In this document: one piece after another, positions 31,154-62,965 of the stretch
Layout: every line of letters starts with the position of its first letter
How positions within the stretch are numbered: position 1 is the first letter of the stretch
From: Marinobacter sp. MDS2
GTDB taxonomy: Bacteria; Pseudomonadota; Gammaproteobacteria; Pseudomonadales; Oleiphilaceae
Assembly (NCBI RefSeq): GCF_030718085.1
Contig: NZ_JAVAJF010000001.1
Span: 806,001-870,000 of the forward strand
Reading direction: 5' to 3'
Length of the DNA stretch: 64,000 bases
Translations under genes and position numbers: made by a program
Notes under the pieces: model-generated
The model's input: only the letters and a program-made list of their open reading frames with translations
Told to the model about the DNA's origin: nothing
Database searches by the model: none

Positions 31154-31624
31154 TGGAAGGCTACTCCGTTGTTGTTCTGAGTCGCTGCTCGATTATTCTG
31201 TTGGTTGGTGTTCTTCGGCCGTGTAGACATTGCCGTGATGCTAGCACTATAGCTAAGGCTTCTCGCGGCTTTGATCAGTCAAAAGTATGATTTTGCTGTC
31301 ACTCTTGGTTAGCCGTCTTTCTCGCACCTCATCACTATAGTCAAGATTCGGGGATGCAACCACTTTGGGGTGGGTGGTTTTGGGCTGGCTCTTTGGAGAG
31401 TTCTGGAGGGGGATTCGCGTTAGTAAACACAGAGCAAATAAGACGACCAAACACAGTGCAAGCACAATACAGAGCCTCCCTTCCGGAAACCGCTACGAGC
31501 ACATCCATGTGCGCTTCTCTCCGGCCATCCATGGCCTACGACATTTCCGGAAGGGAGGCTCTGTATTGTGCGCCCAAACTATTTTAGGGGAGTCTGGGAG
31601 CACTAAATCGGCATTGAGTGCCTG
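31154..31624. other. 471-bp gap between the DUF1302 gene and the thiolase gene
   Basis: No gene is seen here. It holds the presumed promoter region of the DUF1302 operon (31154-31330, minus strand) and hairpin element A (31462-31571). The thiolase 3' end abuts it at 31625. Two TTGACT sequences occur at about 31270-31350 on the minus strand, but without a properly spaced -10, so no promoter is called. Confidence 0.5.
31462..31571. repeat. Variable-stem hairpin element A
   Basis: Perfect 28-bp inverted repeat (arms 31462-31489 and 31544-31571) around a 54-nt loop. Loop subtype ii: on the plus strand it contains GCACATCCATGTGC and GGCCATCCATGGCC, two mini-hairpins with TCCA loops. The innermost stem reads TTCCGGAAA. 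The outer 19 bp are unlike those of the other five copies. Lies between the DUF1302 and thiolase genes, 54 bp past the thiolase stop. Confidence 0.9.
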
Positions 31625-32809
31625 TTAGATCATCTCAATCGCCATAGCCGTGGCTTCGCCACCGCCGATGCACAGGGCCGCTACGCCTTTCTTTTTGCCG
31701 TAGCGCTGCAGGGCATACATCAAAGTAACCAGCAGGCGGGAACCTGTGGAGCCAACCGGGTGCCCTTGAGCGCAGGCGCCGCCGTGGACGTTTACTTTTT
31801 CAGGGTCGAGGCCCAGCTCTTTGATGGGCATCATGGCGACCATGGCGAAGGCTTCGTTGATTTCAAACAGGTCAACGTCATCCTTGCTCCAACCGGTTTT
31901 CGCGAACAGTTTCTCGATCGCGCCAACCGGTGCACAGGTGAACTCGGCCGGTAGCTGCGATTGGGTGGTGTGGCCAACGATGCGGGCGAGTGGTTTGAGG
32001 CCGCGTTTTTCGGCTTCGGATTCGCGCATCAGAACCAGTGCAGAGGCTCCGTCGGAGATTGACGAGGCGTTGGCGGCGGTTACGGTGCCGTCTTTGGCAA
32101 ACGCAGGGCGCAGGCTTGGGATTTTTTCGATGTTGGCGTTGTGGGGCTGCTCGTCGTCTTCGACAACTACTTCGCCTTTACGGGTTTTGACGGTTACCGG
32201 GATGATTTCATCCTTCAATACACCGTCTTCGATGGCTTTTTTCGCGCGGTTCAGGGAGTTGATGGCGTATTCGTCCATCTCTTCGCGGGTGTAGCCTTTT
32301 TTGTCCGCCACTTCCTGCGCGAAGGAGCCCATCAGGCGACCGGTTTCAGCGTCTTCGAGACCATCCAGGAACATGTGATCTTGCGGTGCGGGGCCGGGGC
32401 CCATGCGGTAGCCTTGGCGGGCGCCTTGGAGGATGTGCGGGGCGTTGGACATGCTTTCCATGCCGCCAGCAACCATGATGTCGTTGGTGCCTGCTTTGAT
32501 CAGGTCGTGGGCGAACATGGTGGCTTTCATGCCGGAGCCGCACAGCTTGTTGATGGTGGTGGCGCCAGTGCTGTCTGGCAGGCCGGCTTTACGCATGGCT
32601 TGGCGTGCAGGACCCTGCTTAAGACCTGCCGGCAGTACGTTGCCCATGATGACTTCTTGCACGTCAGCCGGCTGCAGACCTGCACGCTTGACGGCTTCTG
32701 CGATCGAGATGGCGCCCAGCTCAGGGGCTGTGATGGGGGCTAGGCTGCCCATGAATCCGCCCATGGGGGTGCGTACACCGCTGACGATAACGACGTTGTC
32801 TTGGCTCAT
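31625..32809 (-). CDS. Acetyl-CoA C-acetyltransferase (thiolase)
   Basis: Encodes 394 aa. It catalyses the reversible Claisen condensation/cleavage of acyl-CoA. The nucleophile is C90 in TTINKLCGSGMKA. The general base is H350 in GGACAQGHPVGSTGSR, and C380 lies in ALCIGGGEATAM. Length and motifs place it with AtoB/PhaA-type biosynthetic or degradative thiolases. It cannot be assigned from sequence alone to PHA synthesis or fatty-acid catabolism. Monocistronic, with element A beyond its 3' end. Confidence 0.93.
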   Translation of the reverse strand: MSQDNVVIVSGVRTPMGGFMGSLAPITAPELGAISIAEAVKRAGLQPADVQEVIMGNVLPAGLKQGPARQAMRKAGLPDSTGATTINKLCGSGMKATMFAHDLIKAGTNDIMVAGGMESMSNAPHILQGARQGYRMGPGPAPQDHMFLDGLEDAETGRLMGSFAQEVADKKGYTREEMDEYAINSLNRAKKAIEDGVLKDEIIPVTVKTRKGEVVVEDDEQPHNANIEKIPSLRPAFAKDGTVTAANASSISDGASALVLMRESEAEKRGLKPLARIVGHTTQSQLPAEFTCAPVGAIEKLFAKTGWSKDDVDLFEINEAFAMVAMMPIKELGLDPEKVNVHGGACAQGHPVGSTGSRLLVTLMYALQRYGKKKGVAALCIGGGEATAMAIEMI

Positions 32810-32846
32810 GTTGTGACCTCTCTGTTTTCGTGCTTTCTAGTTTTGA

Positions 32847-61521: not shown

Positions 61522-61525
61522 GGGA

Positions 61526-62569
61526 TTAACCCTCCTGGGAGAACATTCCGATGCCGCTGCGATCAATCACTTCCAGCGCTTTACCACCACCACGGGCGAC
61601 GCAGGTCAGCGGGTCTTCGGCAATGATCACGGGCAACCCGGTCTCTTCACTGATCAGTTTGTCCAAACCGGCCAACAATGCACCACCACCGGTCAGCACG
61701 ATGCCGCGCTCAGCGATGTCAGATGCCAGTTCAGGCGGAGACTGTTCAAGCGCACTTTTGACGGTCTGTACGATTTGCGCCAGTGACTCTTGCAGTGCGT
61801 CGAGAATTTCTTCGCTGTTCAAAGTGAATGCCCGGGGCACACCTTCGGCCAGATTGCGGCCGCGAACGTCGATTTCTTTCAGTTCCAGCCCTTCGTAGGC
61901 ACAGCCGATTTCATGCTTGATGCGCTCTGCGGTTGAATCACCAATCAGGCTGCCGTAATTACGGCGCACGTAAGTCACGATGGCTTCGTCGAACTTGTCG
62001 CCACCTACGCGAACGGAATCAGCGTAAACAATACCGTTCAGGGAGATGATGGCGATTTCGGTGGTACCACCGCCGATATCAACGATCATGGAGCCGCTGG
62101 CTTCTTCTACCGGCAGGCCTGCTCCGATGGCCGCAACCATGGGCTCTTCGATCAGGAATACTTCACGGGCACCAGCACCGAGGGCGGATTCGCGAATGGC
62201 TTTACGTTCTACCTGAGTCGATTTGCTGGGCACACAGACCAGTACACGCGGGCTTGGGGTGATGAAGCTGTTTTCGTGCACCTTGTGGATAAAATGCTGG
62301 AGCATTTTTTCGGTGACAACGAAGTCGGCGATCACGCCGTCTTTCATGGGCCGGATGGCGGTGATGTTTCCGGGCGTTCGGCCCAGCATGCGTTTGGCTT
62401 CAGCACCGACGGCGGCAACCATTTTCTGGGAGTTGCTGGTTCTGATGGCGACCACGGACGGTTCGTCCAATACGATGCCACGACCCCGCACATAGATGAG
62501 TGTGTTGGCGGTGCCCAGGTCAATGGACAGGTCGCTGGAGAATAGGCCTCGGAGTCTTTTGATTAACAT
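61526..62569 (-). CDS. mreB: Rod-shape-determining protein MreB
   Basis: Encodes 347 aa, the bacterial actin. Starts [57 protein letters not shown] and [18 protein letters not shown] are the actin phosphate and adenosine motifs. The ATG at 62569 was preferred over the in-frame ATG at 62647, which would give an atypical extension. It heads mreB-mreC-mreD-maf-rng-yhdP. Element F lies about 190 bp upstream. Confidence 0.97.
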
Positions 62570-62965
62570 TCGTGTTGTTTCAACCTGAGAGTTGCGGTTG
62601 CTAAAGAAGGATGCGGCAACTTTATCAGCGGGGCCCTGTGCAGGCAAGGAGCCATCGGGGCTACTGGCTTACTAATTGCACATTTTATAGGTTGTTTCGG
62701 GGCCAATCTGTGGCAGCTTTCTGCTAATATATCCGGCTTGTTTTCAACAGGTGCAACGATGCCTTGGGGAACTGCTTTCCAAAAACCACTCCTTCGGCAC
62801 ATCCATGTGGCGCTTCTGCTCCGCCATCCATGGCTGCGCACATTTTTGGAAAGCAGTTCCCCAAGGCATCCCCGGACATCGAAGGTGCCGTCATAAACGA
62901 CCGTAGCCGCGCGTCCGGGCATCATTGCATTAAATTGTATTCACACATGCTTTATTGGAGGCAAC
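62570..62965. other. 396-bp divergent region between mreB and gatC
   Basis: No gene is seen. It holds element F (62758-62870) and a widely spaced inverted repeat CCCGGAC (62871-62877) / GTCCGGG (62913-62919). Promoters for mreB (minus strand, an AT-rich stretch near 62670-62750) and gatC (plus strand, near 62920-62955) are expected, but none was called with confidence. Confidence 0.55.
62758..62870. repeat. Variable-stem hairpin element F
   Basis: Perfect 28-bp inverted repeat (arms 62758-62785 and 62843-62870) around a 57-nt loop of subtype i: CGGCACATCCATGTGGC and CCGCCATCCATGGC. The inner stem is CTTTCCAAAAA. Isolated from the other five by about 24 kb, in the divergent mreB/gatC region. 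Confidence 0.92.

Follow-up and report, generated by a model that had tools for sequence, protein, structure and literature searches.

Six hairpins with a conserved loop and a private outer stem lie in a 64,000-nucleotide stretch of the Marinobacter sp. MDS2 genome (contig NZ_JAVAJF010000001.1, positions 806,001 to 870,000; hereafter the window) and are members of a high-copy, dispersed family of structured elements in Marinobacter and other members of its order. Each copy forms a junction in which a long basal stem encloses two small hairpins with A-N-GGA-Y loops, N being variable, on one and the same strand, which we call the GGA strand. Judged from its sequence, the family shares the architecture of the TwoAYGGAY RNA, in which two A-N-GGA-Y hairpins likewise sit on a junction closed by a long basal stem. 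We consider it fairly probable that this is a high-copy TwoAYGGAY-like family whose GGA strand acts as an RNA binding CsrA/RsmA, and whose stem is kept paired by selection, aided by template switching. The strongest single result of our analysis is a strand bias in the mismatches of the stem.

Read on the GGA strand, the mismatches left in the stems of 287 copies comprise 181 G·U, 12 A·C and 58 others; three repeats without a clear strand were dropped from this set, and the detector does not distinguish G·U from A·C. G·U outnumbered A·C 47 to 0 where both flanking genes run with the GGA strand, and 45 to 3 where both run against it. Mismatches that are mainly G·U on one strand imply selection for a single-stranded, RNA-like fold, and we read the sequences as indicating that one strand folds and is under selection, as RNA or as single-stranded DNA.

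The two small hairpins are a constant feature of the fold. In a count made without reference to the loop motif across nine species blocks, 124 of 149 long-armed inverted repeats carried two or more ANGGA motifs on a single strand, the opposite strand being free of them; three had one ANGGA, one had one per strand and 21 had none, most of these 21 belonging to two other repeat families. The spacing of the CANGGAY pair is 23-25 nt in all 283 of the 287 copies that have two or more motifs. We built a covariance model, R1, from 69 diverse copies, including hairpin E of the window. Pairing of the basal stem was partly preselected, since the stem had served in finding the copies; in the 69 copies paired cells made up 89.5%, against 61.2% in shuffles. 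Cells changed on both sides numbered 693 (195 in shuffles), and the covariation score was 0.702, against 0.168 when shuffled and at most 0.154 when slid. Pairs with two-sided changes occur in both small hairpins as well. The stem thus covaries far beyond shuffles, which answers the call for a covariation model in a first-pass annotation of the window made from its sequence alone.

Loop similarity is not limited to the window. In the source genome, R1 gave 72 matches, which fall at about 70 places and include exactly six in the window, and a DNA search gave 46 matches (40 of 57 candidates scored). All 21 sampled Marinobacter genomes had R1 matches, with 3 to 144 copies and a median of 72 (150 candidates scored per genome), as did 73 of 194 genomes in an order-wide sample (at most 21 candidates scored per genome), and a single-contig genome from another family held at least 148 copies. 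Thirteen of 19 loci drawn from the order-wide sample came from other genera; 11 of these 13 had two ANGGA loops on one strand and two had one. A pattern scan of genome contigs returned at least 116 loci, and all 80 among the matches listed were from Marinobacter. Net gain or loss of copies is evident from this spread of copy number.

When one locus is followed between species, the stems are often recognisably homologous and altered on both sides, while the loops differ in subtype or are inverted. The arms of the element at C1:884784 of genome G000, for instance, are 90% identical to those in G034 around a loop of another type and length, and at the C1:973740 site G071 has homologous arms with, by eye, an inverted loop. 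The claim of the first-pass annotation that the outer arms are unrelated therefore stands between loci and fails for the same locus in different species, where they are often homologous. Across 26 ortholog comparisons, 58 pairs had both members replaced and were still Watson-Crick; one-sided changes numbered 20 to or from wobble and eight to or from mismatch. Transversion-type changes, which cannot pass through G·U, made up 33 of the 58 two-sided changes, or 25 of 48 once two comparisons that had matched neighbouring elements were dropped. Reversed loops at the hisG-hisD site occupy five separate places on the hisD tree. The further suggestion that a structure is selected whatever its sequence finds support in the covariation of the stem, the coevolving orthologous arms and the G·U-biased mismatches on one strand.

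Passages of PMC8604942 describe how template switching between inverted repeats homogenises their arms and inverts their spacers, and PMC8794818 describes it as creating and maintaining RNA hairpins and as a recent proposal for two-sided stem change. Because two-sided arm changes and loop inversion are the marks reported for template switching, we propose it here. Our elements resemble the quasipalindromes of these two papers in arm homogenisation, in two-sided changes that include transversions and in spacer inversion; they differ in forming a large RNA-like family on which strand-specific selection also acts. The set also constitutes a large natural record of two-sided change in long RNA stems, an old puzzle.

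Comparison of orthologous sites bears on how the present copies arose. By an arm finder, a hairpin was present at the site of mapped G000 elements in 19 of 20 cases in G013, 13 of 13 in G005, 10 of 20 in G071 and 7 of 13 in G034; the finder is ungapped and misses bulged stems (one case is G071 at the G000 973740 site), and its absences are overcounted. A motif test, which also misses some loops, gave 17 of 20, 13 of 13, 8 of 20 and 6 of 13 for the same genomes, and 9 of 14 in G003, 9 of 16 in G024, 5 of 14 in G007 and 3 of 15 in G017. Of 25 comparisons with a closely matched vacant site, representing about 13 sites when judged by eye, 14 retained neither arm, six the left only, three the right only and two both. 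The element-proximal inner arm was kept in six of the 11 comparisons having an arm, which points to deletion scars, and five of the nine one-armed comparisons lacked the inner arm and fit insertion or deletion alike. The vacant site of the G003 element at 130599 retains, by eye, a short outer hairpin in both G007 and G024, though it was scored as having neither arm. G017 and G071, which supply 16 of the 25 comparisons, have the look of lineages that are losing hairpins through deletion. The nine species blocks yielded no confirmed lineage-specific gain: the sole apparent private site, G005 70128, is occupied in G000 (66470), where the motif test missed the loop. Nor was a certain pre-insertion site, at which a target site duplication would be seen, found among the 25 comparisons.

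The idea, put forward in the first-pass annotation, that the element inserts while copying adjacent target sequence into an inverted arm is therefore not supported for the present copies, with 14 of 25 vacant comparisons lacking any arm and several looking like deletion scars. For the founding of loci the model is weakened yet keeps some plausibility, since the one-armed sites would also fit it. Because several vacant sites look like deletion scars, we prefer template switching with selection, which would explain the pattern of arms and loops better than insertion with an inverted target copy.

A-N-GGA-N hairpin loops are the motif of small RNAs that titrate CsrA/RsmA. Like CsrB/RsmZ, the Marinobacter element has several such loops, predicted to be able to hold a CsrA dimer; it differs in being dispersed, many-copy and without sign of a promoter or terminator. 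The source genome has one csrA, and no RsmZ match was found in it. At permissive thresholds, the TwoAYGGAY RNA (RF01731) was the best Rfam match for all five copies scanned (hairpins A-E), always on the GGA strand, with an alignment covering both hairpins and the outer stem. The likeness extends to a long outer stem with little sequence conservation and to a junction of two hairpins whose GGA loops are preceded by CA; the AYGGAY-type two-hairpin junction closed by a long stem is present in the Marinobacter element. The differences are that Marinobacter copies frequently have a purine as second loop base (AYGGAY fits 411 of the 570 loops that end in Y), that a Marinobacter genome holds up to 144 copies, and that the private stems turn over locus by locus. 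Passages of PMC2864571 present TwoAYGGAY as a probable RNA, probably not cis-regulatory, from the human gut, gamma-Proteobacteria and Clostridiales; its Rfam entry is typed cis-regulatory. CsrA binding is predicted for the family in part of PMC4333381, and the partial texts available under the TwoAYGGAY name report no tested function. About 70 copies in one genome, and the range across the genus, make that prediction testable. These elements were not found described in the titles, abstract openings and some passages of published work on Marinobacter palindromic repeats, CsrA small RNAs or sponges, and TwoAYGGAY.

Two observations concern TwoAYGGAY itself. In G541, a genome of another family, TwoAYGGAY matches form a same-strand array with a spacing of about 577 bases (L310, 945-2209), and a similar array lies near 3.66 Mb. 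Repeat family R178 of Pseudomonas fluorescens SBW25 might be a Pseudomonas TwoAYGGAY: passages of PMC2718517 list it as an intergenic element 101 bp long, with an inverted repeat of 11 bp inside it and 9-28 copies across three strains.

We envisage the following mechanism. The selected strand would act as RNA, and its two GGA loops probably bind CsrA, a CsrA/RsmA dimer being held through the paired loops. The copies would then form a dispersed set that titrates CsrA or marks transcripts. The sequence of the stem would be free because only pairing would matter: a mutation in one arm would be followed by rewriting of the other through selection and template switching inside the inverted repeat, and the same process could invert the loop. 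Exchange between copies would replace loops while the outer arms stay. A more sweeping version, which we hold to be possible if doubtful, is that Marinobacter and its order relatives carry dozens to more than 100 CsrA-docking RNA elements on either strand, often head-to-head, as self-repairing palindromes whose loops evolve in concert, exchange between copies spreading new loop types, while their stems drift alone.

Several results weigh against a CsrA-binding RNA maintained in this way, or temper the evidence for it. In a second set of 51 further copies the strand bias was weaker, with 26 G·U, eight A·C and 18 others. Two covariation measures lay barely above shuffles (30 pairs with two-sided change against 27.1, and 90 further pair types against 88.5). 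The pattern used for the contig scan spells both small hairpins, and loop conservation in data derived from it was partly chosen. The 26 ortholog comparisons are those kept from 80, with 15 having identical arms and 39 left out for less than 75% of pairs agreeing; the species pairs overlap, and the changes are not independent events. At some sites both the arms and the loop are wholly different in close species, as at C1:963463 of G000 compared with G013, and neither template switching with selection nor insertion with an inverted target copy explains such sites well. The reversed loops could be separate insertions.

The genomic setting and the Rfam scores add to these points. Single copies in co-directional gaps run sense in 56 cases and antisense in 45, an orientation that ignores the genes. 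The hisG-hisD gap contains a hairpin in 42 of 81 Marinobacter genomes, and 37 of the 43 elements there are antisense to the operon, which sits poorly with an RNA derived from the transcripts of genes. By a crude caller, 145 of the 287 copies were placed over some reading frame of at least 80 codons (gene context for the orientation counts was called with longer frames). Promoter-like sites showed no excess upstream (33 of 222 copies against 32 of 222 shuffled) in a test of sigma-70-like sites with a hand-typed matrix; they were most numerous downstream, in 44 of 222 copies, where they are directed back towards the hairpin. A TTTT run follows the stem in only two of 222 copies. These counts do not indicate an RNA of the CsrB/RsmZ type with its own sigma-70 promoter and intrinsic terminator. 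All TwoAYGGAY scores (25.9-41.5 bits) are below the Rfam gathering cut-off of 43, and we therefore do not file the element as a TwoAYGGAY member; none of 15 other Marinobacter loci exceeded the cut-off either. R1 in turn found no match in G541 and G055, both of which have TwoAYGGAY matches over the cut-off, and none in the order-wide sample in five further f20 genomes (identified by handle number) with such matches. At best, the two models describe separate branches.

The family could instead be a non-autonomous mobile element that moves as single-stranded DNA, its GGA strand folding for an enzyme and its arms being supplied by the target or by fold-back synthesis at insertion. We regard this as unlikely. 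The wide range of copy numbers within Marinobacter and the large complement in another family favour it, as does the presence of exactly one arm in nine of the 25 vacant comparisons. Copies are oriented without regard to genes, and in G239 a search for replication-strand bias found none, whichever origin was assumed (0.074, the null 95% point being 0.122). Most close pairs stand head-to-head, namely 36 of 36 in the first set, where some loci recur between species, seven of seven in the source genome and eight of 11, with none same-strand, in G239; by hand count, 10 of 13 pairs of listed TwoAYGGAY matches starting within 500 bases were head-to-head and the other three same-strand. Against mobility stand the sites common to close species such as G013 and G005, though far fewer are shared with G071 and G017, and the lack of a confirmed private gain in the nine species blocks. 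Two-sided changes keep up the stem at each locus, which a spent insertion would not need, and the genome's only Y1 transposase sits among a different repeat. Hairpin F had no match in phage and plasmid collections, the exact core pattern none in viral contigs, and a plasmid search with 25 kb of the window found nothing.

Template switching alone, without selection, would also keep arms complementary and leave palindromes that fold without function. Such a purely mutational origin predicts the variable loop orientation seen between species at one site and agrees with about half of the two-sided changes being of transversion type; it also predicts equal numbers of G·U and A·C, whereas 181 to 12 and 26 to 8 were observed, and it gives no reason to expect the two GGA loops seen in 124 of the 149 repeats that were collected without a loop motif, so that we find it hardly probable at all. 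That the hairpins are transcription terminators, or stabilise messenger RNA behind genes, is suggested by five of the six in the window lying within about 110 nt behind minus-strand genes and by 17 of 33 close pairs with callable gene context sitting between convergent genes. We consider this quite improbable: the T-run expected after the stem is nearly always missing, copies occur within the his gene cluster, orientation is near even in co-directional gaps, divergent gaps hold 36 of the 164 single copies whose context could be called, and conservation of the loop would go unexplained. A CsrA-binding RNA with a template-switched stem thus remains the reading we favour.

All six hairpin positions in the first-pass annotation hold, with hairpin B longer by 1 bp (Table 1). 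The sizes reported there were also accurate: arms measure 27-30 nt with 93-100% complementarity, and the loops fall into the two subtypes recognised earlier, 54 nt in A and C and 57 nt in the other four. The description of a conserved loop with a conserved inner arm needs qualification, in that the inner arm is less uniform than claimed (CTTCCGGAAA in A, CTTTTCAAAAA in B). Best-offset identity between the outer arms of the six copies averaged 0.43 (range 0.32-0.61, 15 pairs), near chance as judged from random 19-mers (mean 0.38, 95% point 0.47). The window contains exactly six inverted repeats with a score of at least 20, and five mononucleotide shuffles of it gave none with a score of at least 13 and a 45-66 nt loop. 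R1 recovers all six and no seventh. Four GGA strands and two opposite strands were folded, and all folded far better than shuffles (z -8.5 to -12.2).

Table 1. Hairpins of the window, with positions counted from its first nucleotide. E, expectation value.
Hairpin	Position	Location	GGA strand	Stem	Loop	TwoAYGGAY match
A	31462..31571		minus, sense with flanking genes	28 bp	54 nt, 31490-31543	31.9 bits, E 0.055, 31449-31586 minus
B	34653..34765		minus	28 bp, 1 mismatch	57 nt, 34681-34737	33.7 bits, E 0.021
C	35672..35785		minus	30 bp, 1 mismatch	54 nt, 35702-35755	37.1 bits, E 0.0036
D	36974..37086	between hisC and hisD	plus, antisense to his genes	28 bp, 2 mismatches	57 nt, 37002-37058	33.4 bits, E 0.025
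E	38533..38643	between hisD and hisG	plus, antisense to his genes	27 bp, 1 mismatch	57 nt, 38560-38616	25.9 bits, E 1.2
F	62758..62870	upstream of mreB	minus	28 bp, perfect	57 nt, 62786-62842	41.5 bits (whole-genome search)

Hairpin F overlaps a 120-aa reading frame (62563-62925) that has no Pfam match. At its site in G071, and at the G013 site of the G000 element at C1:926099, an extra stretch of about 80 nt with small hairpins replaces part of hairpin 2. The two stretches resemble each other and are possibly a second element that targets the loop.

Other classes of repeat were compared with the family. The conserved terminal inverted repeats of a miniature inverted-repeat transposable element (MITE) are lacking, the outer arms being near chance. 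Repetitive extragenic palindromes (REP) and their paired form (REPIN), which occur with a REP-associated tyrosine transposase (RAYT), are similarly high in copy, hairpin-forming and often arranged in inverted pairs; the Marinobacter element differs in that its ends are not conserved and in being a junction element of about 110 nt, and neither conserved hairpin ends nor a RAYT flanked by copies was found. A RAYT was also rejected as its mover, the genome's one Y1 transposase belonging with other repeats. An IS200-like Y1 transposase gene lies at 3317-3964 of the window, with inverted TGGGGTCAGACCCC copies nearby at 1770, 2310-2387 and 3194-3258, and together they make up, over 1770-3964, a RAYT accompanied by REP-like repeats that has nothing to do with the hairpin family.

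A second hairpin family has the same design, with a conserved loop around GGAAAAAGAACTCGCTGCGCTCAGACACCTTTTTCC and outer arms that vary per copy and pair within each copy. It was found in the nine species blocks, for example at block positions G000 53801 (C1:883802), G013 50957 and 52243, G007 85887 and 87231, and G024 95832. A palindromic repeat around GTAGGTCGGATTAGCGAAGCGTAATCCGAC occurs at L077 9463-9596, in spacers in L049 and L182, and in the blocks of G007, G017 and G003; in L049 it lies between two paired hairpins.

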